DNA of 64,000 nt, from positions 314,501 to 378,500 of the forward strand of contig NC_019954.2 in the NCBI RefSeq assembly GCF_000328765.2. The letters run 5' to 3'. Shown here one piece after another: positions 40,795-62,814 of this stretch. Source of the stretch: Tepidanaerobacter acetatoxydans Re1. Lineage in GTDB: Bacteria > Bacillota > Thermosediminibacteria > Thermosediminibacterales > Tepidanaerobacteraceae. A model generated the notes under the pieces. It had not been told where the DNA came from and searched no databases. It worked only from the letters and a program-made list of their open reading frames with translations. The position numbers were made by a program, and so were the translations under genes. Numbering within the stretch: position 1 is the first letter of the stretch; each line of letters starts with the position of its first letter.

Positions 40795-42284
40795 ACTTAA
40801 ATACTGTACGCTATATTCTTGGCACTTTACTGATCGTTTTAGGAATTTCCATGGTTCCATCTCTGGGATGGTCGATTTATTATGGTGACAGCGATATCAA
40901 TGCTTTTTTATTTTCAATCGTTGCCGCAATAATAGTTGGAGTGTTGCTGCGAGTGAAAACTTACTTGAGAAAAGATTTAGGCCTTAGAGAAGGCTTTCTT
41001 ATTGTCACATTAGGTTGGATATTGGCCGGTATTTTTGGAGCATTGCCATTTGTGTTTTATGGCGCGGTGGATACTTTTATCGATGGATTTTTTGAAGCGA
41101 TATCAGGTTTTACGACTACCGGAGCCACGGTAATAAACAATGTGGAAGCACTTCCTCACGGAATACTCTTTTGGCGAAGTTTTACTCACTGGCTGGGCGG
41201 CATGGGAATTATAGTGCTTTTCCTGGCTATCCTTCCGGGAGTAGGTGCCGGAGGATTTCATATGTTTCGTGCAGAGGTTCCCGGGCCTTCAGTTTCGAAA
41301 CTATCTTCCAAGATAGCAAATACGGCAAAAATATTATGGCGCATATATATGGGGTTGACGATACTTCAAACCATATTATTGATGGTAGCCGGCCTTGATT
41401 TATTCGATTCACTGACACATACATTCGGCACAGTTGCAACCGGAGGTTTTTCCACGCGAGCTTTGAGCGTAGGTGCCTTTAAAAATCCTGCAGCAGAAAT
41501 TATAATATTAATATTTATGGCAATGTCCGGGGTAAATTTCAGCCTTTATTATTATCTGCTTAAGCGCCAGTGGGATCGAGTATTTGGAGATGAGGAGCTG
41601 AAATTTTACTTAGGAGTAATCATCGTTACAACTCTTTTAATTGCATGGAATATCAGAGGATTAATTCCATTAAAGACCGACCTTTTTAGGACAAGTGCGT
41701 TTCAAGTGGTTTCAATAATGACCACTACCGGATATGCTACTGCAAATTTTGACCTTTGGCCTGCATTTTCTAAAATGTTACTGTTGCTGCTTATGTTTTT
41801 TGGAGGATGTGCCGGTTCTACCGGCGGTGCCATAAAACAAATCAGGATGCTGATTTTATTCAAATACTGCAGGCGAGAGTTAACCCATACACTTCACCCT
41901 AAAGCTGTAGTCCCGGTAAAAATAGGAGGCAAACCTATTCCCGATGATGTCCTGAGAAATATTTTGGCATTTAGTTATATATATATAGCCTTATTTGTGC
42001 TAGGCTCGTTATTCATAGCGATGTTGGGCGAAGACATGATAACATCGGTTTCATCTGTAGCAGCTACACTGGGCAACATAGGTCCGGGGCTTGGCAGTGT
42101 GGGTCCCGAATCTACTTTTAGCGAAATCCCACAAATTGGAAAACTTGTCCTCAGCTTTCTTATGTTAATGGGAAGGCTTGAGATATTTACAGTGATGCTG
42201 TGCTTTACTCCAAGTTTTTGGCAGGGAGTTACAATCTTTGGTAAACCCAAGGACTATTCACTGCGGAAAGACCACTCAATTTAA
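40791..42284 (+). CDS. trkH: Trk/Ktr potassium channel subunit
   Basis: 497 residues from TTG 40791, overlapping the trkA stop. It has the TrkH/KtrB pattern of four membrane-pore-membrane repeats with selectivity sequences such as SGFTTTGATV, GTVATGGFSTR, MTTTGYATANF and LGNIGPGLGSVGP. The length suits TrkH. It imports K+ with TrkA. Confidence 0.94.
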   Translation: MNLNTVRYILGTLLIVLGISMVPSLGWSIYYGDSDINAFLFSIVAAIIVGVLLRVKTYLRKDLGLREGFLIVTLGWILAGIFGALPFVFYGAVDTFIDGFFEAISGFTTTGATVINNVEALPHGILFWRSFTHWLGGMGIIVLFLAILPGVGAGGFHMFRAEVPGPSVSKLSSKIANTAKILWRIYMGLTILQTILLMVAGLDLFDSLTHTFGTVATGGFSTRALSVGAFKNPAAEIIILIFMAMSGVNFSLYYYLLKRQWDRVFGDEELKFYLGVIIVTTLLIAWNIRGLIPLKTDLFRTSAFQVVSIMTTTGYATANFDLWPAFSKMLLLLLMFFGGCAGSTGGAIKQIRMLILFKYCRRELTHTLHPKAVVPVKIGGKPIPDDVLRNILAFSYIYIALFVLGSLFIAMLGEDMITSVSSVAATLGNIGPGLGSVGPESTFSEIPQIGKLVLSFLMLMGRLEIFTVMLCFTPSFWQGVTIFGKPKDYSLRKDHSI

Positions 42285-42323
42285 AATTGAATATTTTGGG
42301 TCTATGTTAAAATGAAAACAACT

Positions 42324-42393
42324 TGTCATCCTGAACGCAGTGAAGGCTCTTTGCAAGGATTAAATAAGATTCTTCGCTGCGCTCACAATGACA
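42324..42393. repeat. REP-like imperfect palindrome
   Basis: TGTCATCCTGAACGCAGTG at the left and its near reverse complement CGCTGCGCTCACAATGACA at the right enclose a short middle. The TGTCATCCTGA...AATGACA form is a well-known short intergenic repeat type in diverse bacteria. It lies in the 434-base gap after trkH. Confidence 0.6.
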
Positions 42394-42472
42394 GCAGTAT
42401 ATAGCAAAATGACAGACCTCTGAATAATAACGACGTTATCATGGAACGAATAAATATAATTTTTTTTTGGTG

Positions 42473-42501
42473 TTGACAAGAAAACAAGCAAATGTTAAAA
42501 T
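42473..42501 (+). promoter_or_regulatory. promoter of the ECF S-component gene
   Basis: TTGACA (42473-42478), 17 bases, TAAAAT (42496-42501). Predicts a leader of about 210 bases. Confidence 0.72.
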
Positions 42502-42510
42502 TTTATCAAA

Positions 42511-42685
42511 TGGTCATGAAGGCCATAAAGTGTTATACAGATGTAAAAATATAAGGCATGCAAAAACTACCATAAATTATATTATTTAAAAGCTATTATA
42601 AAAATCTTATAAATACTTTGAATTAAACCATGAAGGTTAAGCTGTTTGGCTGAATGAAACGGCTTTGTTCATGGTTTTATTTTTC
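42511..42685 (+). promoter_or_regulatory. leader with repeated AUGAA-loop hairpins and a terminator (candidate attenuator or riboswitch)
   Basis: Hairpin 1 is TGGTC-ATGAA-GGCCA (42511-42525). Hairpin 2 is AACC-ATGAA-GGTT (42626-42638). The left arm of hairpin 2 is also the left arm of a strong terminator: AAACCATGAA (42625-42634) with TTCATGGTTT (42668-42677), plus the inner stem 42639-42647/42657-42665, followed by TATTTTT. The two pairings exclude each other. The layout suggests control of the downstream transporter gene. I do not recognise it as a known class. Confidence 0.5.
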
Positions 42686-42718
42686 CCTAAATAATAAATC
42701 AGATTGGAGTGTTTGAAC

Positions 42719-43261
42719 TTGAGAAATGATAATCTATACCAGATAGCGCTTGCTGGTGTGTTTACTGCCTTTGGAATTGTACTGCCGATGATGTTTCACG
42801 TGCTAGGGCTTGGTTCAACCTTTTTGCCAATGCACATACCGGTTTTACTTTCGGGATTTTTCTTGGATGCGCCTGTTGCGGGAGCGGTAGGAGCGTTGAC
42901 GCCAATTTTAAGTTCTGTTTTTACCGGCATGCCTCCGGCTTTTCCGGTAATGCCCTATATGGTTTTTGAACTTGCAGCCTATGGTTATATGACAAGTTTT
43001 ATGTATAGAAAACTGCGTCAGAATGTTTATGTATCCTTAGTCGGCAGTATGGTTTTCGGACGCATTGTATCAGGCATTGCCGTATGGGTGCTTACAGCCT
43101 TTTTCGGCGCCAAATTTCCCACGCCCGTAGCTTTTATTGCTGCAAGTATTACAAATGGCTTGCCCGGAATAGCAATTCAACTGATATTTATTCCGGCAGT
43201 AGTTTTGCTGCTTAAAAAATATCAAATGAGGGCAACCGGGAGGGATACCCTTGAACCATAA
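42719..43261 (+). CDS. ECF transporter S component (substrate unknown)
   Basis: About 180 residues from TTG 42719, best spaced to GGAGTG at 42706. Five or six membrane segments with the S-component start (YQIALAGVFTAFGIVLPM), an MHIPVLLSG loop, and a PAFPVMPYMVFELAAYG segment. Such proteins bind a vitamin or metal and need ECF A/A'/T subunits, which are not in this window. The gene overlaps the next one by 11 bases. Confidence 0.8.
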   Translation: MRNDNLYQIALAGVFTAFGIVLPMMFHVLGLGSTFLPMHIPVLLSGFFLDAPVAGAVGALTPILSSVFTGMPPAFPVMPYMVFELAAYGYMTSFMYRKLRQNVYVSLVGSMVFGRIVSGIAVWVLTAFFGAKFPTPVAFIAASITNGLPGIAIQLIFIPAVVLLLKKYQMRATGRDTLEP

Positions 43262-43838
43262 GGACTTCTTCAATGAAGTGGCGGATAAATGGGACGAAAT
43301 GTGCCATCATAATGAAGCAAAACTTAGATATATAACTAAGATGGCAGGAATATCTAATGGAGATTGCATTTTGGATGTAGGTACAGGAACCGGCGTGATG
43401 ATCCCATATATATATGAAATGATAGGCGATGAGGGAGAAATTATAGCCATCGACCTTGCAGAAAAGATGCTTGAAGTTGCAAGACAAAAATATCCTTTTA
43501 ACAATGTTCGTTTTGTTCTGGGAGATATTTATGATGCAGCTCTCCCTGAAACCCATTTTGACGTTATAATGTGCTACTCGGTTTTTCCTCACTTTCAAGA
43601 CAAACCGACAGTGATATCTCATATGGCAGGCCTTCTAAAGTCCGGCGGCAGGCTTGTAATAGCTCACTCTCAGAGCAGGAGAGCTATAAACGAGCTTCAC
43701 GCAGAAAGTTCTGATGCGGTAAATAGCGATGACCTTCCTGAAGCAGATGTTATAAAAGGATTTATGAAAGAGACAGGGCTTAAACCTGTATTTGCCGAAG
43801 ACAATGATGAGATGTTTATACTTATCGGTAAAAAATAA
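43251..43838 (+). CDS. class I SAM-dependent methyltransferase
   Basis: 195 residues from TTG 43251 with GGGAGGG upstream. SAM-binding motif LDVGTGTGVMIPYI, then IAIDLAEKMLEVA and DVIMCYSVFPHF. It resembles small UbiE-like methyltransferases. Substrate unknown; it is translationally linked to the ECF S component and stands before an FmdE-type protein, suggesting a cofactor or metal-related role. Confidence 0.85.
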   Translation: MNHKDFFNEVADKWDEMCHHNEAKLRYITKMAGISNGDCILDVGTGTGVMIPYIYEMIGDEGEIIAIDLAEKMLEVARQKYPFNNVRFVLGDIYDAALPETHFDVIMCYSVFPHFQDKPTVISHMAGLLKSGGRLVIAHSQSRRAINELHAESSDAVNSDDLPEADVIKGFMKETGLKPVFAEDNDEMFILIGKK

Positions 43839-43951
43839 ATAATTAAGTCGCAAAGACTGTAATAATGAAACTGTAATGAGCAGTCTTGAGATTGGTGAGC
43901 TGTGCTCATATCGATATCATTTATACCAAATCATTTAAGGAGAGATTTTTT

Positions 43952-44482
43952 ATGGATGAACAGCTTTGGCAAAAATGTGTAGAATTTCACGGCCACGAAT
44001 GTCCGGGCCTTGCTATCGGATTTAAGGCATGTGAGGCGGCAAGGAAAAAACTTGGTATTAGTTTTTCTAAAGATGAAGAAATAGTTTGTGTGACAGAAAA
44101 TGATGCGTGCGGAGTTGATGCAGTTCAGGTTATTACAGGATGTACATTAGGCAAAGGGAATCTAATATACCGCGGTACCGGCAAACAGGCATTTACCTTC
44201 TTTCGCCGGGATACAGGGCAAAAATTGCGTATCATATTAAAACCCAGGGATGATAATGATAAACTGTCAAAGGATGAGCGTAAGAAAGTTATCATGGAAA
44301 GCCCTGTTGAAGAACTATTTGAATTTAAGAATCCCAGTTTTGATTTGCCAAAGAAGGCTCGCATATTTAATACAATAAAATGTGTAAAATGCGGTGAAGG
44401 AGCTCCGGAACACAAAATACGCATAACGGATAATAAGCCTGTGTGCCTAGATTGTTTTGAGGATTATTCGAGAGGTTGGTAA
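43952..44482 (+). CDS. FmdE-family protein with C-terminal zinc ribbon
   Basis: 176 residues from ATG 43952 (AAGGAGAG upstream). The FmdE signature is clear: FHGHECPGLAIGFKACEAA and ENDACGVDAVQVITGCTLGKGN. A C-terminal ribbon has CVKCGEGAP and CLDCFEDY. FmdE proteins occur with molybdenum or tungsten formate/formylmethanofuran enzymes and near metal transporters; their biochemical role is unsettled. The neighbouring ABC transporter is of peptide/nickel type. Confidence 0.88.
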   Translation: MDEQLWQKCVEFHGHECPGLAIGFKACEAARKKLGISFSKDEEIVCVTENDACGVDAVQVITGCTLGKGNLIYRGTGKQAFTFFRRDTGQKLRIILKPRDDNDKLSKDERKKVIMESPVEELFEFKNPSFDLPKKARIFNTIKCVKCGEGAPEHKIRITDNKPVCLDCFEDYSRGW

Positions 44483-44545
44483 GCCTTGAAAGTGGATTTA
44501 GATAACCTTGATGAAAAAACAAAACATTTGAGCAGGAGATTTAAT

Positions 44546-46135
44546 ATGAAAAAATCAAAAACAAGTAAACTGTTTGCTGCATGCGTGCTTACGATTGTAA
44601 TTTTTGGCATGGCCGGCTGCGGCACAAAAACCACAGAAAAAAGTTTAGGCGGCACCGGCGAACAAAGTGCGCCATTGGTAATATGTCTGGAAGGCGGGGA
44701 TTGGGGGTTTCCTTCTCCATTTGCTCACTATTCTCGGGGACCGGGTGCATCAAAAATGCGTCTTATCTATGACAGCCTTCTGGAGAAAGGAGAAGAAGGT
44801 CTTATTCCATGGCTGGCAAGGGAATGGACTATATCCCCGGACGGTAGGGAGTATACCTTTGTTTTAAACTCTAAAGTCAAATGGCATGATGGGAAGATGC
44901 TTACCGTCCAAGATGTAAAGTTTTCTTTCGAGTATTTTATGAAACATCCTCCGGTTTCCGATAGTTTGTTTATTGACGGAAAACCATTTATTGAAAAAAT
45001 AGAGGTTATTGATGAAAGCCAAGTAAAAATAGTGGTAAAAGAGCCTAACGCTACAGTATTGGATAGATTGGGGATTGTCAGGATAATTCCGGAGCACATC
45101 TGGAAGGACATAGATGACCCCAAAAAAGTAATGGATTTGGATAAATTAGTAGGATGCGGCCCGTACATACTTACGGATTATAGTCAGGAGCAGGGCAAGT
45201 ATCGATTCCAAGCATTTAAAGATTACTGGGGACGGAAGCCTCGGGTAGATGTAATTGAATTTATCCCGGTAAGCGATCCGGTGCTGGCTTTCGAAAACGG
45301 AGAAATAGATCTTTTGGATGTTCCGCCGGATATAATTGATCGGTATGAAAACAATAAAGAATTTAAAATCCTTAAAAGTCCGGCCTTCTGGGGTTATAAA
45401 CTCCTGTTTAACATGGAGAAAAAACCGGAATTGGCGGATATAAACGTAAGAAAAGCTATTGCCCATGCCGTAGATGTTGATGAACTTATCGAAAAAGTAG
45501 CACGAGGTGCGGCGGTTTCGGCAAGCTCCGGATATTTGCCAATTGATCACATATGGTATAATCCCGATGTTACGCGATATGATTTTGATATAGAAAAAGC
45601 TAAGGAACTTTTAAACAATAAATTATTAAACCTAGTACTACTAATATCGGACAGTCAACAAGAAGCCAGGATTGCAGAACTTCTTAAAATCAACTTCGCA
45701 AAAGCCGGAATCAATATTGATGTTCGCGCAGTGGACATGAAGACCCGTGACAACTGTGTTAAAAACTGTGATTATGAACTTGCCATAATTGGACATGGTG
45801 GCTGGGGACGCGATGCCGATTGCCTCAGGGAAGCTTATGCGGCAACTGTAGCTCGTGATGCCGGTCCCGCATCCAATGTAATTTGCGGTTACAGCAATCC
45901 TAAGATAAGCCAACTTTGCAAAAAGCAGCTTATAGAACTGGATGAACAAAAAAGAAAATCTATGATAATGGAGCTTCAAAAACTTATATCAGATGAGATA
46001 CCAATGCTGCCCCTTTACAATACAATTGATTATACGGTCTTTAAACCGGAAAAGTACGACGGATGGGTTCATGTTTTTGACCATCATGCGGTAACTCACA
46101 ACAAATTATCATATTTGGAACAAGATAAAAAATGA
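44546..46135 (+). CDS. family 5 solute-binding lipoprotein of a peptide/nickel-type ABC transporter
   Basis: 529 residues from ATG 44546 (AGGAGA upstream). Lipoprotein signal with lipobox GMAGC, then SBP family 5 features: LIYDSLLEKGEEGLIPWLAREW, YTFVLNSKVKWHDGKMLTVQDVKFS, VGCGPYILTDY and KAIAHAVDVDEL. It captures the substrate outside the cell. The substrate (peptide, nickel or metal chelate) cannot be read from sequence; the FmdE neighbour favours metal. Confidence 0.9.
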   Translation: MKKSKTSKLFAACVLTIVIFGMAGCGTKTTEKSLGGTGEQSAPLVICLEGGDWGFPSPFAHYSRGPGASKMRLIYDSLLEKGEEGLIPWLAREWTISPDGREYTFVLNSKVKWHDGKMLTVQDVKFSFEYFMKHPPVSDSLFIDGKPFIEKIEVIDESQVKIVVKEPNATVLDRLGIVRIIPEHIWKDIDDPKKVMDLDKLVGCGPYILTDYSQEQGKYRFQAFKDYWGRKPRVDVIEFIPVSDPVLAFENGEIDLLDVPPDIIDRYENNKEFKILKSPAFWGYKLLFNMEKKPELADINVRKAIAHAVDVDELIEKVARGAAVSASSGYLPIDHIWYNPDVTRYDFDIEKAKELLNNKLLNLVLLISDSQQEARIAELLKINFAKAGINIDVRAVDMKTRDNCVKNCDYELAIIGHGGWGRDADCLREAYAATVARDAGPASNVICGYSNPKISQLCKKQLIELDEQKRKSMIMELQKLISDEIPMLPLYNTIDYTVFKPEKYDGWVHVFDHHAVTHNKLSYLEQDKK

Positions 46136-47100
46136 GATATCAAAAAGCCCTGAAATATCTTGTAACATTTTTCTGTATAATCACATTGAACTTCTTCTTG
46201 CCCCGAATTATGCCGGGGGACCCCTTCTATTTTTTATCAAGCGAACAGGGAGAAGTAACTGTGACTTATTCTCAAGAAGAAATTGATCGATTTAAAGCAT
46301 ATTACGGTCTGGATAAGCCTGTGCTTGCCCAATACGGTAGCTATCTGAAGGGTATTATCAAAGGGGATTTGGGATATAGCATATATTTTGGCAGTGATGT
46401 AAGGACAATTATTAAAAACCGAATCCCTTGGTCTGTTTCCCTGGTATTGCTGTCAGTAATAATAGGAGGCGGTGCCGGCACGCTGTTGGGCTGTTTGTCG
46501 GCATGGCAAAGGGGGAAAGGCTCAGATAAGGTCCTCTACGGTATAATGGTCGTAATTTCTGAAATCCCCGCATTTTTAATAGGCATATTTTTCCTGTTTT
46601 ATTTGGCGGCTCGGCAGGGAATTTTTCCTCTTTCAGGTGGCGCAAAACCCTTTGCAGACTATGCCTCTTGGGCTGATGCGGTTTTAGACATAGTGTATCA
46701 CGGTTTTTTACCTACTCTGACACTCTCTGCGGTTCAGATGGGCGGATTTTATCTTATAGCCAGAAACAGTATGATTACGGTAATGTCCAAAGATTATATA
46801 ATCACAGCTAAAGCTAAGGGACTTAGCACAGGGCGCATACTCTTTCGCCACGCCTTATCCAATGCTGCCTTGCCTATTGTAACTCAAGCTTTTTACAGTT
46901 TGGGGCAAGCAGTGGGAGGGACTCTATTGGTAGAAAATGTATTTAAGTATCCGGGCCTCGGTTCATTAATGCGACAAGCCGTAATGGTAAGGGATTACCC
47001 TTTGATTCAGGGGATTTTTTTGACCGTAACGTTTTTTGTAGTTATCATGAATGCTGTAGTTGATATTTTATATAAAAAGCTTGACCCGAGAATAACTTGA
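46132..47100 (+). CDS. ABC transporter permease (DppB/NikB type)
   Basis: 322 residues, ATG overlapping the preceding stop (ATGA). Six membrane helices, N-terminal PRIMPGDPFYFL, a periplasmic YGLDKPVLAQYGSYLKG loop, and the EAA loop region SKDYIITAKAKGLSTGRILFRHALSNA. It forms the channel with the next gene product. Confidence 0.95.
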   Translation: MRYQKALKYLVTFFCIITLNFFLPRIMPGDPFYFLSSEQGEVTVTYSQEEIDRFKAYYGLDKPVLAQYGSYLKGIIKGDLGYSIYFGSDVRTIIKNRIPWSVSLVLLSVIIGGGAGTLLGCLSAWQRGKGSDKVLYGIMVVISEIPAFLIGIFFLFYLAARQGIFPLSGGAKPFADYASWADAVLDIVYHGFLPTLTLSAVQMGGFYLIARNSMITVMSKDYIITAKAKGLSTGRILFRHALSNAALPIVTQAFYSLGQAVGGTLLVENVFKYPGLGSLMRQAVMVRDYPLIQGIFLTVTFFVVIMNAVVDILYKKLDPRIT

Positions 47101-47112
47101 TGGTGATAAAAA

Positions 47113-47943
47113 ATGCCTAAAATTGTGAAACAATTTTCCATAGCAGGTAAATTTTCCTTGTCTTTCATAGTCTTAGTATGTTTTATCGCCATATTTGCCC
47201 CGATGCTTACGAAACACCCGTGGAATCAGCCAACGGGCGCCTCTTTGGAACCTCCGAACAAAGCTCATATATTGGGCACTGATGATTTGGGTATAGATTT
47301 GTGGGCTCAAATATGCTACGGAACGCGAAACAGCATTGTAGTGGGGATTGGAACAGCAATAATTACATGTTTTCTGGGTATAGTACTAGGCGTTGTATCC
47401 GGGTATTATGGAGGTATAATTGACCTTGTAATCACAGCCTTAATAGATATGCTTACATCCATACCCAGTTTGCCTATAATGATTGTGACAGGAGCTTTTT
47501 TCGGACCAAGCATAAAAAACATTATATTAATATTATCTATTTTATCTTGGGCTATGCCCGCGCGGATTATACGCTCAAAGATTATTTCAGTAAAACAGGA
47601 AACTTACATAAAAGTAGCCGAGGGGTATGGAGCAGGATTTTTATACATAACTTACAAACATTTTCTGCCACAGATTTTTCCAATTTCACTTGCAAGTTTT
47701 ATTAAACTTATAAGCAAGGCCATAGTATCCGAGGCCAGTCTTTCATTTTTAGGCCTAGGGGACCCTACAAGCAAAAGCTGGGGACTTATATTAAATTATG
47801 CATTGAATTTTCCCGGCGTATACTTTACTGATTACTGGAAATGGTGGGTTGTATATCCACTATGTTGTATCATATTGCTTGTGCTGGCTACGGCCATTAT
47901 AGGCAGGGAGTTTGAAAAAATATTAGATACTAAAATTGATTAG
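47113..47943 (+). CDS. ABC transporter permease (DppC/NikC type)
   Basis: 276 residues. HILGTDDLGIDLWAQICYGTRNSI near residue 55 and the EAA region SVKQETYIKVAEGYGAGFLYITYKHFLPQ, then SEASLSFLGLGDPTSKSWG, all typical of the C-type permease. It is 12 bases behind its partner. Confidence 0.95.
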   Translation: MPKIVKQFSIAGKFSLSFIVLVCFIAIFAPMLTKHPWNQPTGASLEPPNKAHILGTDDLGIDLWAQICYGTRNSIVVGIGTAIITCFLGIVLGVVSGYYGGIIDLVITALIDMLTSIPSLPIMIVTGAFFGPSIKNIILILSILSWAMPARIIRSKIISVKQETYIKVAEGYGAGFLYITYKHFLPQIFPISLASFIKLISKAIVSEASLSFLGLGDPTSKSWGLILNYALNFPGVYFTDYWKWWVVYPLCCIILLVLATAIIGREFEKILDTKID

Positions 47944-47987
47944 ATTTTAGAAACCAAAACCGGATTTTTTTAAATAGGGGTATTGCC

Positions 47988-49682
47988 ATGTTAAAAGTTG
48001 AAAATCTATCAGTAACCTATAGCGGGGACGGTCAAAAAACCCATGCTGTAAGGGAAGTATCTTTTTCACTAGAGCAGGGGCAATCCATGGGAATCATCGG
48101 AGAATCAGGAAGCGGTAAAACCACACTGGGCTTAGCTATAATGGGTATACTCAGCTCAACCGCAAAGGTTACAGGGACAATAGAATATAATAAAATCAAT
48201 CTAAGAGAGCTTTCCGCAAGTCAGCCGGATATGTATCGATGGAAACACATTGCCATGGTATTTCAAAACGGCCTTGACATATTAAACCCACTTATGACCA
48301 TAAATGAGCAGATAAAAGAGTGTATTATCCGTCATCTGAAAATAAAAAATCATGAAGCAGATTCTCGAGTAAAAGAACTTCTTGAACAAGTAGGGCTGGA
48401 CGCCTCGGTGGCAGATAACTTGCCTCATCAGCTGTCGGGAGGTATGCGGCAGAGAGTGCTTATTGCCATGGCCTTGGCATGTGATCCTAAAGTGCTTATA
48501 GTTGATGAGCCGACCTCTTCTTTGGATGCCATATCCAAAGCCGAAATCATTGAGCTCTTATCTCGCCTCCAACACCAAAAGCGGTTTGCTATGATTGTAA
48601 TATCCCATGATTTTTCCGTAATTACACGACTTGCCAGTAAAATGTGTGTGATGTACCGGGGCTGTATCCTTGAAGAAGGATTGACAAGAGATATACTTGA
48701 AAACCCATTGCATCCCTATACCCGGGGGCTTATAAATTCATCGCCTTCTTTAAATCCATATCAGGATTTATGGGGAATTCCCCGGGCAGGTGAGGCGACA
48801 ACCGATGAGGGCTGTTCTTTCTTTCCTCGGTGCAGTCAAAGGTCACAGATATGCAAAAATCAAAAACCTAAACTGGAATATGCATCACTTGAGCGTAAAG
48901 TTGCCTGTAATCAAGGTGGAATTATAACACTTTTAGAAGCCTGGGGAATAAATAAAACCTACTCTTTTAAAGGTAATAAGATTTGTGCATGTAAAGACTG
49001 TCATATGAGTATTCGTGCAGGCGAGATTATAGCATTGATAGGGCAATCCGGATCAGGTAAAACTACCCTGGCAAGTATTCTCTCGGGTTATTTGGAACCT
49101 GAAAGCGGGAATATTGAATTCTTGGGTCAAACAATAAAACAGCATGAATTTACCAGCAAACCAAAAGGCATTCAAATGGTGTTTCAAGACCCGTTTTCAT
49201 CAATAAACGACCAATTTACAGTACTGCAAGCTGTAAAAGAGCCTCTGGACATATTAAAGCTCTATAATACAGACGAGCGAACGTCTAGAGTAAAGCAAGC
49301 CCTTATCGATGTAGAGCTGGCCAGTGATGATACTTTTTTAAACAGGCGATGTTTTACATTAAGCGGTGGGCAACGGCAGCGGGTTGCTATCGCCCGCAGC
49401 CTTGTCCTTGAACCAAGACTCCTCATTGCCGATGAGATTAGCTCTATGCTGGATCCCTCCACACAAGCCAATATTTTACGGCTTTTAAAGGGCCTTCAAA
49501 ACACATTAGGATTTGCCATGATTTATATTACCCATGACCTAGATATTGCAAGAAAAATTGCCGACAAACTGTACATAATGCATAAGGGTGAAATAGTGGA
49601 AACAGGTCCGGCCTGGAAAGTATTTGATAATCCCAAAAGTGAGTATACCAGGAAGTTAATGAACAAAGCGGGATTGGCATAA
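47988..49682 (+). CDS. fused double ABC ATPase (DppD-DppF/NikD-NikE type)
   Basis: 564 residues holding two complete ATPase domains. Domain 1 has Walker A GESGSGKTT, signature LSGGMRQRV and Walker B VLIVDEPTSSLD, plus the oligopeptide C-terminal motif CSFFPRCSQRSQIC. Domain 2 has GQSGSGKTT, LSGGQRQRVAIARSL and LLIADEISSMLD. In most relatives these are two genes; here they are one chain with the Cys-rich linker between. In domain 2 the usual EPTSALD reads EISSMLD. Confidence 0.94.
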   Translation: MLKVENLSVTYSGDGQKTHAVREVSFSLEQGQSMGIIGESGSGKTTLGLAIMGILSSTAKVTGTIEYNKINLRELSASQPDMYRWKHIAMVFQNGLDILNPLMTINEQIKECIIRHLKIKNHEADSRVKELLEQVGLDASVADNLPHQLSGGMRQRVLIAMALACDPKVLIVDEPTSSLDAISKAEIIELLSRLQHQKRFAMIVISHDFSVITRLASKMCVMYRGCILEEGLTRDILENPLHPYTRGLINSSPSLNPYQDLWGIPRAGEATTDEGCSFFPRCSQRSQICKNQKPKLEYASLERKVACNQGGIITLLEAWGINKTYSFKGNKICACKDCHMSIRAGEIIALIGQSGSGKTTLASILSGYLEPESGNIEFLGQTIKQHEFTSKPKGIQMVFQDPFSSINDQFTVLQAVKEPLDILKLYNTDERTSRVKQALIDVELASDDTFLNRRCFTLSGGQRQRVAIARSLVLEPRLLIADEISSMLDPSTQANILRLLKGLQNTLGFAMIYITHDLDIARKIADKLYIMHKGEIVETGPAWKVFDNPKSEYTRKLMNKAGLA

Positions 49683-58363: not shown

Positions 58364-58401
58364 TTATAAAATTGAACATGTACCTCATCTCGCAAAGAGT
58401 T

Positions 58402-58569
58402 GAGGTAGAGGCGCGATGTATCAAGAGTAAGCTCGTGGAGGCGGGGAGGCCGATGAAACAAGCCAAAAGGGATTATCGCCGAAGTATGGTTTATCCCAAA
58501 GACCATGCTGGGCCTATATCGAATAGGTATAGGACTGTCACCGAAGTAATTCGGTGGAGAGCTACTTCA
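58402..58569 (+). promoter_or_regulatory. lysine riboswitch (L box)
   Basis: P1 is GAGGTAG (58403-58409 region) with CTACTTC (58562-58568). The conserved elements are AGAGGCGCG, AAGAGTAA, GGAGGCCGATGAAA, ATCGCCGAAG, GCTGGGCCTATA, GACTGTCACCGAAG and GGTGGAGAGCTAC, in the order of the lysine aptamer. It stands before a terminator and the diaminopimelate dehydrogenase gene, so lysine would shut down its own synthesis. Confidence 0.95.
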
Positions 58570-58593
58570 AGAGAGAGGTATTTGCCAAGGAAT

Positions 58594-58672: not shown

Positions 58673-59581
58673 GTGTCAAAATCCAGAATTGCCGTAGTAG
58701 GTTTTGGCAATGTAGGAAGAGAAGTAGTACCTGCTATTAAGGAAAGCCCAGATATGGAAGTGGCGGGAATTGTCCTAAGGAATCCCAAGAAAATTGATTC
58801 AATTAAAAAAACAGTTAGCGATATCCCGGTAGTAACAGATATAAAGGAACTGGGGAAAATTGATGTTGCAATTCTAAGTATACCCAGCCGTTCTATTCCT
58901 GAGGTTGCTCCACAGTATCTAAAAATGGGCATTAATACTGTTGACAGCTTCGATATTCACGGTGATTCCATCATGAGTCTGAGGAAAAACTTGGATCAGA
59001 TTGCAAAAGCCAATGATGCCGTATCCGTAATTTCTTCAGGCTGGGATCCGGGTTCGGATTCTATTGTAAGAGGTTTATTAGAGGTAGTTGCTCCAAAAGG
59101 GTTGACCTATACTAATTTCGGCCCGGGTATGAGCCTTGGACATACCGTAGCAGTTAAAGCTATTGAGGGCGTAGAAGATGCCCTGTCGATGACGATACCG
59201 GAAGGCACCGGCCTTCATAGGCGTTTAGTATACGTAAAGATTAAGGAAGGGTATGATTTTGAAAAAATTTCCGAGGCAATAAAAAATGATCCTTATTTTA
59301 TCCATGATGAAACCCATGTTTATAAAGTAGATGATGTAAAAAGTCTCATAGATAAGGGTCATGGTGTGCATATGGAAAGGAAGGGTGTATCCGGCACCAC
59401 CCATAATCAGCGAATGGAGTTTATAATGTCTATATGCAATCCGGCGGCCGCAGGTCAGGTAATGGCAGCTGCTGCCAGGGCAAGCCTTAGGCAAAAGCCC
59501 GGATGCTATACCACACTAGAAATTCCAATTATAGACTTTCTATGCGGAGAAAAAGAACAACTATTACATCGATTGATATGA
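58673..59581 (+). CDS. ddh: meso-diaminopimelate D-dehydrogenase
   Basis: 302 residues from GTG 58673 (GGGAGG 7 bases upstream; the ATG at 58671 is out of frame). VVGFGNVGREVVPAI dinucleotide loop, SFDIHGDSI, SSGWDPGSDSIVRGL, TNFGPGMSLGHTVAVK and GTTHNQRMEF are characteristic of Ddh. It makes meso-diaminopimelate in one step from tetrahydrodipicolinate and ammonia. Regulated by the lysine riboswitch upstream. Confidence 0.96.
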   Translation: MSKSRIAVVGFGNVGREVVPAIKESPDMEVAGIVLRNPKKIDSIKKTVSDIPVVTDIKELGKIDVAILSIPSRSIPEVAPQYLKMGINTVDSFDIHGDSIMSLRKNLDQIAKANDAVSVISSGWDPGSDSIVRGLLEVVAPKGLTYTNFGPGMSLGHTVAVKAIEGVEDALSMTIPEGTGLHRRLVYVKIKEGYDFEKISEAIKNDPYFIHDETHVYKVDDVKSLIDKGHGVHMERKGVSGTTHNQRMEFIMSICNPAAAGQVMAAAARASLRQKPGCYTTLEIPIIDFLCGEKEQLLHRLI

Positions 59582-61459: not shown

Positions 61460-61503
61460 TATGATAAAGAAAAAGTTCATATGGCATATGATGGTATGAA
61501 GAG

Positions 61504-61648
61504 GATGAGAGAGGCCTTTCTAAAAGGCGCCGAAGGGGTAAACCAGATCCAGGTGAAACTCTCAGGCAAAAGGATCATCTTTGGACCAACCTCTGGAGAG
61601 CTTTGGCGCCGACGAGGGAAATCTTTCAGGCAAAGGGACAGAGGTTCT
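61504..61648 (+). promoter_or_regulatory. tandem glycine riboswitch
   Basis: Aptamer 1 (61504-61577) shows GAGAGAGGC, GGCGCCGAAGGGGTAAA and CTCTCAGGCAAAAGGA. Aptamer 2 (61582-61648) shows CTGGAGAG, GGCGCCGACGAGGGAAA and TTTCAGGCAAAGGGACAG, closed by AACCTCT with AGAGGTT. This is the normal glycine-activated arrangement before gcv genes. Confidence 0.95.
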
Positions 61649-61749: not shown

Positions 61750-62814
61750 ATGCTTAAAAGAACTCCGCTCTATGAAGAGCATTTAAAATTAGGGGCAAAA
61801 ATGGTGGATTTTGCAGGTTTCGAAATGCCTATCCAGTATTCATCGATAATCGATGAACACATGGCTGTAAGGACAAAATCGGGCATCTTCGATGTGTCTC
61901 ACATGGGAGAAATCTTGGTCAAAGGAGAAAATGCCGGAGATTTTCTAAATGATATTCTCACAAATAACATTCATAAAATCAAAGAAGGCCAGGCCCAATA
62001 CACCATCATGACATATGATGATGGTGGAACCGTGGACGATCTCATGGTTTATAAGCTGAGCCTAACTCGCTACTTGCTGGTAGTAAATGCGGCCAACAAG
62101 GACAAGGATTTTGAACACATCAAAAGTTTGGCTCCTGCGGATGTTGTGGTGGAAGATGTGAGTGATGATTATGGTCTAATTGCCATTCAAGGCCCGGAAA
62201 GTGCCGGATTTGTAAAAGAACTCTTTGGAGAGATACAACTCAAACCATTTAATTTTCGAACCATTGAATTTGATAGTGATTCACTGATTTTATCCCGTAC
62301 CGGCTATACCGGCGGTGAGGGTTTTGAAGTGTACGGCTCTCCGGAGATGACGAGAAGGCTGTTTTGTAAAGCAGTTGACTTTGGAGTAATTCCCTGCGGG
62401 CTTGGAGCAAGGGACACGTTGCGTTTTGAGGCAGGTCTGCCGTTATACGGCCATGAGCTAGGTCCGGATATTACGCCTGTTGAAGCGGGACTTAGCAGAT
62501 TTATAGATTTAAGTAAGCCTTTCAAAGGGCGTGATGTGCTGCGCACTCAAAGCGAGCAAAGAGATAGAAGACGTCTTATCGGGCTTAAACTTCTTGATCG
62601 TGGAGTGCCAAGACCTGATTATCCTGTGTATTATGACGGCAAACAGGTTGGAAAGGTGACATCCGGCGGTTTTGCGCCATACGTTAAGGAATATTTGGCT
62701 ATGGCTCTGGTAAAAATACCTTTGGATGATGCTAATGATAAGTTATTTGAGATTGAAATTCGCGGAAAAAAACATCGAGCCGAAAAGGTATCTACGAACT
62801 TTTTAAAAGGATAA
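61750..62814 (+). CDS. gcvT: glycine cleavage T protein (aminomethyltransferase)
   Basis: 354 residues, ATG 61750 with AGGAGGGATG. KMVDFAGFEMPIQYSSIIDEH, GIFDVSHMGEI, MTYDDGGTVDDLMVYKL, GYTGGEGFEVYG and GLGARDTLRFEAGLPLYGHEL. It transfers the methylene group to tetrahydrofolate. First gene of the gcvT-gcvH-gcvPA operon; 17 bases before gcvH. Confidence 0.97.
   Translation: MLKRTPLYEEHLKLGAKMVDFAGFEMPIQYSSIIDEHMAVRTKSGIFDVSHMGEILVKGENAGDFLNDILTNNIHKIKEGQAQYTIMTYDDGGTVDDLMVYKLSLTRYLLVVNAANKDKDFEHIKSLAPADVVVEDVSDDYGLIAIQGPESAGFVKELFGEIQLKPFNFRTIEFDSDSLILSRTGYTGGEGFEVYGSPEMTRRLFCKAVDFGVIPCGLGARDTLRFEAGLPLYGHELGPDITPVEAGLSRFIDLSKPFKGRDVLRTQSEQRDRRRLIGLKLLDRGVPRPDYPVYYDGKQVGKVTSGGFAPYVKEYLAMALVKIPLDDANDKLFEIEIRGKKHRAEKVSTNFLKG

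Follow-up and report, generated by a model that had tools for sequence, protein, structure and literature searches.

The leader of the ECF S-component gene in the 64,000-nucleotide stretch of Tepidanaerobacter acetatoxydans Re1 analysed here (the window) carries an intrinsic transcription attenuator, in which a terminator and an antiterminator hairpin are both conserved and mutually exclusive. We believe that this attenuator probably serves a nickel regulon, as a cis-acting transcription-antitermination element held open by a factor, most likely a protein, at nickel scarcity. By default, RNA polymerase would form the strong terminator and stop ahead of the operon. Under nickel shortage, the repeated hairpins with C-(A)NGAA-G loops (HP1, HP2 and often HP3) would be bound by a trans-acting factor, most likely an RNA-binding protein, which by keeping HP2 as a hairpin would remove the 5' arm of the terminator. 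Transcription would then read through into the S-component, methyltransferase, FmdE and Nik-type ABC genes (Table 1). Since the same design stands before nickel-uptake and nickel-enzyme genes in many relatives, it looks like an undescribed nickel-supply switch. We infer that nickel is the signal, that low nickel is the ON state and that the trans-acting factor is a protein.

Table 1. Features of the attenuated operon in the window
Feature	Position	Strand	Evidence
Promoter TTGACA-17-TAAAAT with extended TG	42473..42501	+	Consensus scan, 11/12 matches
Hairpin 1 (HP1), ATGGTC-ATGAA-GGCCAT	42510..42526	+	Sequence; fold -6.8 kcal/mol
Hairpin 2 (HP2), AACC-ATGAA-GGTT, antiterminator	42626..42638	+	Sequence; alignment A1, pair counts
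Intrinsic terminator; U-rich tail 42675-42684	42626..42684	+	Fold, A1 pair counts, R1 match
Hairpin 3 (HP3) position within terminator, enlarged loop GGCTGAATG	42639..42665	+	Folds; sister strain L002
ECF S component (PF12822), TTG start	42719..43261	+	Pfam, 55.3 bits
SAM-dependent methyltransferase	43251..43838	+	Pfam
FmdE family protein, C-terminal zinc-finger domain	43952..44482	+	PF02663, PF01258
SBP_bac_5 solute-binding protein	44486..46135	+	Best NCBIfam is nickel NikA, 165 bits, cut-off 393
Opp/Nik-type permeases, 46132-47100 and 47113-47943; double ATPase, 47988-49682	46132..49682	+	Profile matches

The promoter at the head of the leader, called good in the original prediction, is the top-scoring of 13 promoter-like sites in 41000-44500. 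The number of such sites is itself uninformative, because shuffled sequence gives 10.0. TTGACA boxes also lie 5' of hairpin 1 in three other loci (L003, L004 and L005; by eye). Both predicted ATGAA-loop hairpins are present, and an extra ATGAA at 42654-42658, missed in that prediction, sits in a related third hairpin position. The sister strain (L002) has a cleaner HP3, which reads AAGCTGT-ATGAA-ACGGCTT. HP2 supplies the 5' arm of the terminator through its own 5' strand and loop, with AACCATGAA (42626-42634) pairing with TTCATGGTT (42668-42676), followed by T-rich sequence to 42684. The terminator fold reaches -20.8 kcal/mol (42622-42676), and folding of the region 42502-42725 beats that of shuffled sequences (z = -2.3; 4 of 200 shuffles equally good). 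For 42616-42684, the best fold has -23.5 kcal/mol compared with -13.0 kcal/mol when HP2 is forced. The terminator form is thus favoured over the HP2 form by about 10 kcal/mol, suggesting that the default state is OFF and that a factor would be needed to hold HP2. Further upstream, between trkH and the leader, lies a palindrome-like repeat (TGTCATCCTGAACGCAGTGAAGG ... TTCTTCGCTGCGCTCACAATGACA; 42324-42393), which we take to be of the mobile intergenic kind.

Relatives of the S component (PF12822) were sought in 61 genomes, 30 of which had a match, and in named contigs (51 loci). At least one ANGAA hairpin with a stem of at least 4 pairs was found in 35 of 77 S-component leaders, compared with 428 of 11,696 control windows drawn from the same loci; near-duplicate sister loci were kept in this set, and L026, L028, L029 and L030 were excluded. 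At least two such hairpins occurred in 21 of the 77 leaders and in only 9 of the 11,696 controls, so the repetition of the loop, which had been read as a hint of a switch, is not a matter of chance. The other 42 leaders, among them most of those from distant homologues, have no ANGAA hairpin.

HP2 and the terminator were aligned over 23 loci (alignment A1). The source was 27 leaders, chosen from listings in which hairpins were already marked; L021, L024 and L061 gave nothing and L042 was dropped. The script required the terminator pairing and made no use of the HP2 pairing, and four rows in which it had started at HP1 (L003, L025, L045 and L049) were trimmed to HP2 by hand. The string C-A-n-G-A-A-G is invariant in A1. 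The terminator helix has 95.2% of its cells paired and 14 cells changed on both sides (4.9 in shuffles), while the HP2 helix has 83.7% paired and 11 changed on both sides (3.9 in shuffles); none of 500 shuffles gave a both-side count as high for either helix, and slid versions fell far lower. Counted by pairs changed on both sides, the terminator gave 4 vs 2.6, with 57 of 500 shuffles as high, and HP2 gave 3 vs 1.8, with 75 of 500 as high. Counts of pair types were equalled in 308 of 500 shuffles for the terminator and in 53 of 500 for HP2. Two of the five covariation measures are unremarkable for the terminator and likewise for HP2. The competition between HP2 and the terminator that had been proposed for the window holds up, in that the exclusive pairing is conserved in the leaders of some, though not all, homologous S-component genes. 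A lack of conservation of the loops or of the pairing, the outcome named beforehand as speaking against a switch, did not appear in these leaders. Two HP2-terminator units stand in tandem in L128, L131, L119 and L110, and by eye in L047. Matches on both strands, possibly two-way attenuators, were seen in L126 (5992-6351; genome G315, two neighbouring copies) and L114 (7636-7699).

R1, a covariance model that covers HP2 and the terminator, was applied at a threshold of E <= 0.01 per genome and matched 121 of 398 Bacillota genomes and 83 of 267 genera, with at most 12 matches per genome and a single match in the window's own genome. The window match (42622-42684) scored 51.6 bits with a sequence that is itself part of the model. 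From the E-values, which are rough, about 4 genomes with a match would be expected. R1 misses real sites, matching only three of nine genomes behind named loci and leaving G415 unmatched though its locus L044 is in the model, and the figure of 121 of 398 may therefore be low. Scanned with a different script, 73 of the 80 loci L112-L191 proved to contain the element. R1 gave no match in one Synergistaceae genome, the sole genome from outside the Bacillota that was searched. On one contig (G182:C50, with L116 and L117), the matches listed include seven to the element and four to fmdE, adjoining Nik-type ABC, CobN-like and DUF4198/Gate genes in what looks like a large metal-acquisition island.

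Searching the window with Rfam 15 gave no match at the element at gathering score. The leader searched at E <= 10 gave three weak matches, all scoring far under the gathering threshold, and 20 other loci gave only T-box and 5S rRNA matches, both away from the element. Elsewhere in the window, Rfam identified a lysine riboswitch (58398-58572, 5' of the gene at 58673) and a glycine riboswitch (61496-61587, 5' of the gene at 61750, which by eye reads like a glycine-cleavage T protein). No description of the element was found in the literature searched, which covered subscription papers thinly and is weak evidence of absence.

The design of the element was compared over 131 distinct sites from the loci fetched, which represent part of the places found with R1; 100 of these sites came from a search independent of the S gene. 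The site finder demanded that CANGA form its five core pairs with the terminator arm, and accepted C or T as the first base. With either base admitted, C-G closes HP2 in 127 of 131 sites. Base 2 of the HP2 loop is T or C in 123 sites, as the terminator arm demands, a bias that is partly built in because the finder required these pairs. An ANGAA hairpin of the HP1 type (stem of at least 5) lies upstream in 51 sites (shuffles: mean 2.1, maximum 6), and 21 more have an upstream hairpin with only an NGAA tetraloop (shuffles: 5.4, maximum 11). An unbiased listing of upstream hairpins (stem of at least 6) gave ATGAA, AAGAA, AGAA and CGAA, closed by C-G, as the commonest loops. HP3, inside the terminator (stem of at least 4), is of the ANGAA type in 24 sites and NGAA-only in 33, compared with 0.7 and 3.3 in shuffles. 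At 59 sites neither type of upstream hairpin passed the loop and stem test, which counts against the antitermination model. The distance from the end of the HP1 loop to the closing base of HP2, 14-133 nt over 51 sites, is loose for one rigid dimer and also counts against it. Base 2 of the HP1 loop is T in 30 sites, A in 11, C in 6 and G in 4. The terminator right arm can pair with the HP1 loop in the window, as had been noted, but because this base varies elsewhere the pairing is not conserved and was rejected as a general feature.

Small conserved loops that recur before transporter genes could also belong to a riboswitch whose hairpins bind Ni2+ or another small ligand themselves, and none of four protein families tested as the factor occurs in every carrier examined. 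We consider a direct riboswitch unlikely, because it is only the ON form that leaves the conserved HP2 loop free. A ligand bound there would turn uptake ON, which is the wrong sign for nickel, since nickel should switch uptake OFF. Base 2 of the loops varies freely, with no match between loops, unlike kissing loops; the spacing ranges from 14 to 133 nt; and Rfam has no match to the element for the window, the leader or the 20 other loci. Guanidine-II (mini-ykkC) riboswitches bind their ligand with two small similar hairpins, and the NiCo (czcD) riboswitch has a nickel link. The element resembles each in that one respect, but differs from both in its loops and architecture, and at gathering score Rfam reported no match to it in the window or the 20 other loci. 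The hairpin array appears to suit factor binding better than a compact aptamer. Of the original prediction of an attenuator or riboswitch, the attenuator is therefore retained, while a riboswitch that reads a ligand directly fits less well.

The genes behind the element argue for nickel as the signal in factor-dependent antitermination. Families found 3' of the sites include CbiM/NikM-type ECF uptake systems, NikA-like binding proteins, Opp/Nik permeases and FmdE, and further FecBCD-type ABC transporters, CobN, methyltransferases, the S component, LarC and Ni-CO dehydrogenase (CODH). Matches above curated cut-offs were obtained for LarC (L135 and L137), CODH (L173 and L196) and NikA (L198). 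Of the sites found blind to the S gene, 93 have a gene no further than 700 nt away. In 48 of these the first five genes include CbiM, LarC, CODH, SBP5 or an Opp permease, and in 78 they include any listed family, as scored with a reference set compiled from the same loci. Seven of the 131 sites lack a gene within 700 nt; 18 of the remaining 124 have no listed family in their first genes. Neighbours without a nickel link include an RHS protein (L146), a flavin reductase (L133) and ZnuA (L114), and one of two R1 matches in G416 resembles a plain terminator before unrecognised genes.

Geosporobacter ferrireducens, which has a complete named genome, contains five sites. One precedes the S component, two precede Nik-type ABC operons, one (L196) lies 741 nt 5' of a CODH gene that is followed by a CooC-like ATPase, and the fifth has a methyltransferase 1.2 kb downstream. 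Anaerobacterium chartisolvens has two sites, before the S component and before an FmdE-FecCD operon. A [FeFe] hydrogenase stands 3' of the element in L145 (group A, at 417 nt) and in L167 (group A6, as the second gene), and the presence of this nickel-free enzyme among the targets would suit an element that is ON at low nickel. The CODH operon of L196 would be expected to be ON with nickel present, opposite to the uptake genes. The first gene after the element encodes a protein of about 300 residues without a family match in L151 (5649-6530; Pfam only), L171 (748-1701; Pfam and NCBIfam) and L122 (4297-5226; NCBIfam only). Transporter genes stand behind all three, and their products may be a new transport or regulatory part.

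The element might instead answer to cobalt or B12 status. CobN and CbiM-named genes occur downstream, and the CbiM matches bear cobalt names; the B12 synthesis genes considered were CobN and CbiM only. LarC, CODH and NikA above their curated cut-offs indicate nickel, however, as does the exchange with NikR described below, and we regard a cobalt or B12 signal as quite improbable. The earlier suggestion of a switch that reads a ligand of the transporter holds to the extent that the signal would be tied to the substrate, if this is nickel or a nickel complex, whereas a vitamin is unsupported by the gene contexts.

Strong NikR matches, defined by E below 1e-20, account for 52 of the 69 genomes with a match, the remaining 17 being weak. 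Strong matches were found in 4 of 121 element carriers compared with 48 of 277 other genomes (p = 4e-5), and among FmdE carriers in 2 of 89 with the element compared with 22 of 58 without it (p = 1e-8), p-values that are inflated because the genomes share descent. Inclusion of weak matches gives 15 of 121 carriers and 54 of 277 others; in all eight genomes checked for both, the weak NikR match coincides with a TM1266 match. Directly 5' of the orthologous S gene in G015, G017, G018 and G019 lies nikR, and the leaders from these genomes (L016, L015, L018 and L023) lack the element and carry NikR-like boxes instead. Paired GTGTTAC-like half-sites without CANGAAG occur in L014, L015, L016, L018, L023, L057 and L058. 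The delta-proteobacterial NikR box given in PMC545781 is GTGTTAC-N13/14-GTAACAC; five of our seven half-site pairs are direct repeats and not inverted as in that box. NikR, as PMC545781 and PMC2667541 describe it, represses the same kind of target genes, yet acts as a DNA repressor, unlike RNA antitermination. R1 has a match elsewhere in the genomes G015, G017 and G018, so one genome may contain both the element and NikR. Neither an ANGAA hairpin nor a NikR-like pair is present in about 35 of the 77 S leaders. The exchange with NikR, a comparison of sequences, is the best single argument that the operon in the window would answer to nickel.

We see roughly equal reasons to accept and to doubt the broadest reading. 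According to this, a new RNA-antitermination class, an array of C-(A)NGAA-G hairpins with a nickel-status protein or RNA alone as the sensor, would control the uptake of nickel and the enzymes that use it in roughly three of every ten Bacillota genomes sampled, mostly replacing NikR, and would give an orphan family of ECF S components a substrate, namely nickel or a nickel complex. Hairpin-based antitermination is itself known; the protein that reads the hairpins, or sensing by RNA alone, has a fair chance of being new. If true, this reading predicts that either an RNA-binding factor responsive to nickel or a sensing RNA of a new kind exists, places target sites in the cultured, named species G. 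ferrireducens and A. chartisolvens, and provides a substrate hypothesis for an S-component family hitherto without one.

Four protein families, ANTAR, FmdE, TM1266 and CsrA, were evaluated as the trans-acting factor, and none occurs in every carrier examined. TM1266 was rejected as an obligate factor given its absence from G094 and G397, each a single contig, and from G075, with two contigs. CsrA is present in 16 of 17 carriers and was rejected on its absence from the single-contig genome G315. CsrA/RsmA sites have GGA in the loop, whereas the loop core of the element is NGAA.

FmdE, a dimer with a metal site and a zinc finger, could sense nickel, bind RNA and in this way act on its own operon and on related ones. 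It is enriched among element carriers (89 of 121 compared with 58 of 277 other genomes), and the element stands directly 5' of fmdE in several loci. PMC2954224 describes one member with a mixed Zn/Ni metal site, from protein that had passed over nickel resin, and names RNA binding as a possible role. FmdE is nonetheless absent from 32 of the 121 carriers, including the single-contig genomes G007 and G022, and as an obligate factor it was rejected. We give the family only a slim chance of being the factor.

ANTAR proteins, of which EutV is an example, offer the closest architectural precedent. Their targets (eut, nas and ami), as set out in PMC3369931 and PMC8934654, are dual-hexaloop antiterminators with A at position 1 and G at position 4, with a linker of 5-12 nt in E. 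faecalis eut. The element shares with them a pair of conserved-loop hairpins, the second overlapping a terminator, and a proposed outcome in which binding leads to read-through. It differs in its ANGAA or NGAA loops, which are not hexaloops with A1 and G4 as described there, in a third hairpin that often lies inside the terminator, in an HP1-HP2 distance of 14-133 nt in place of the short eut linker, and in the nickel-type genes that it precedes. An ANTAR protein (PF03861) is present in 12 of 17 carriers tested and absent from 5, among them the window's single-contig genome (G000); its absence from G000, G007 and G022 counts against a role as a general factor, and it was rejected as an obligate one. 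Recognition of the hairpin pair by an ANTAR protein, in the manner of EutV, is accordingly highly improbable.

We also examined the S component itself. Across 80 aligned sequences, G32, P37, M38, H39, P41, P62, P72, E84, Q154 and P159 are invariant among the letters present, and M81 (98%) and H27 (91%) are highly conserved. Met and His residues at such positions would fit a metal site. Under the nickel-antitermination model, this orphan S component would probably import nickel or a nickel complex. Comparison by sequence with solved structures found no relative, with one chance match at E 0.91. One S-component homologue (L009; G025:C13:38605-39117) contains a single in-frame TGA, which may reflect a pseudogene, an error or recoding.
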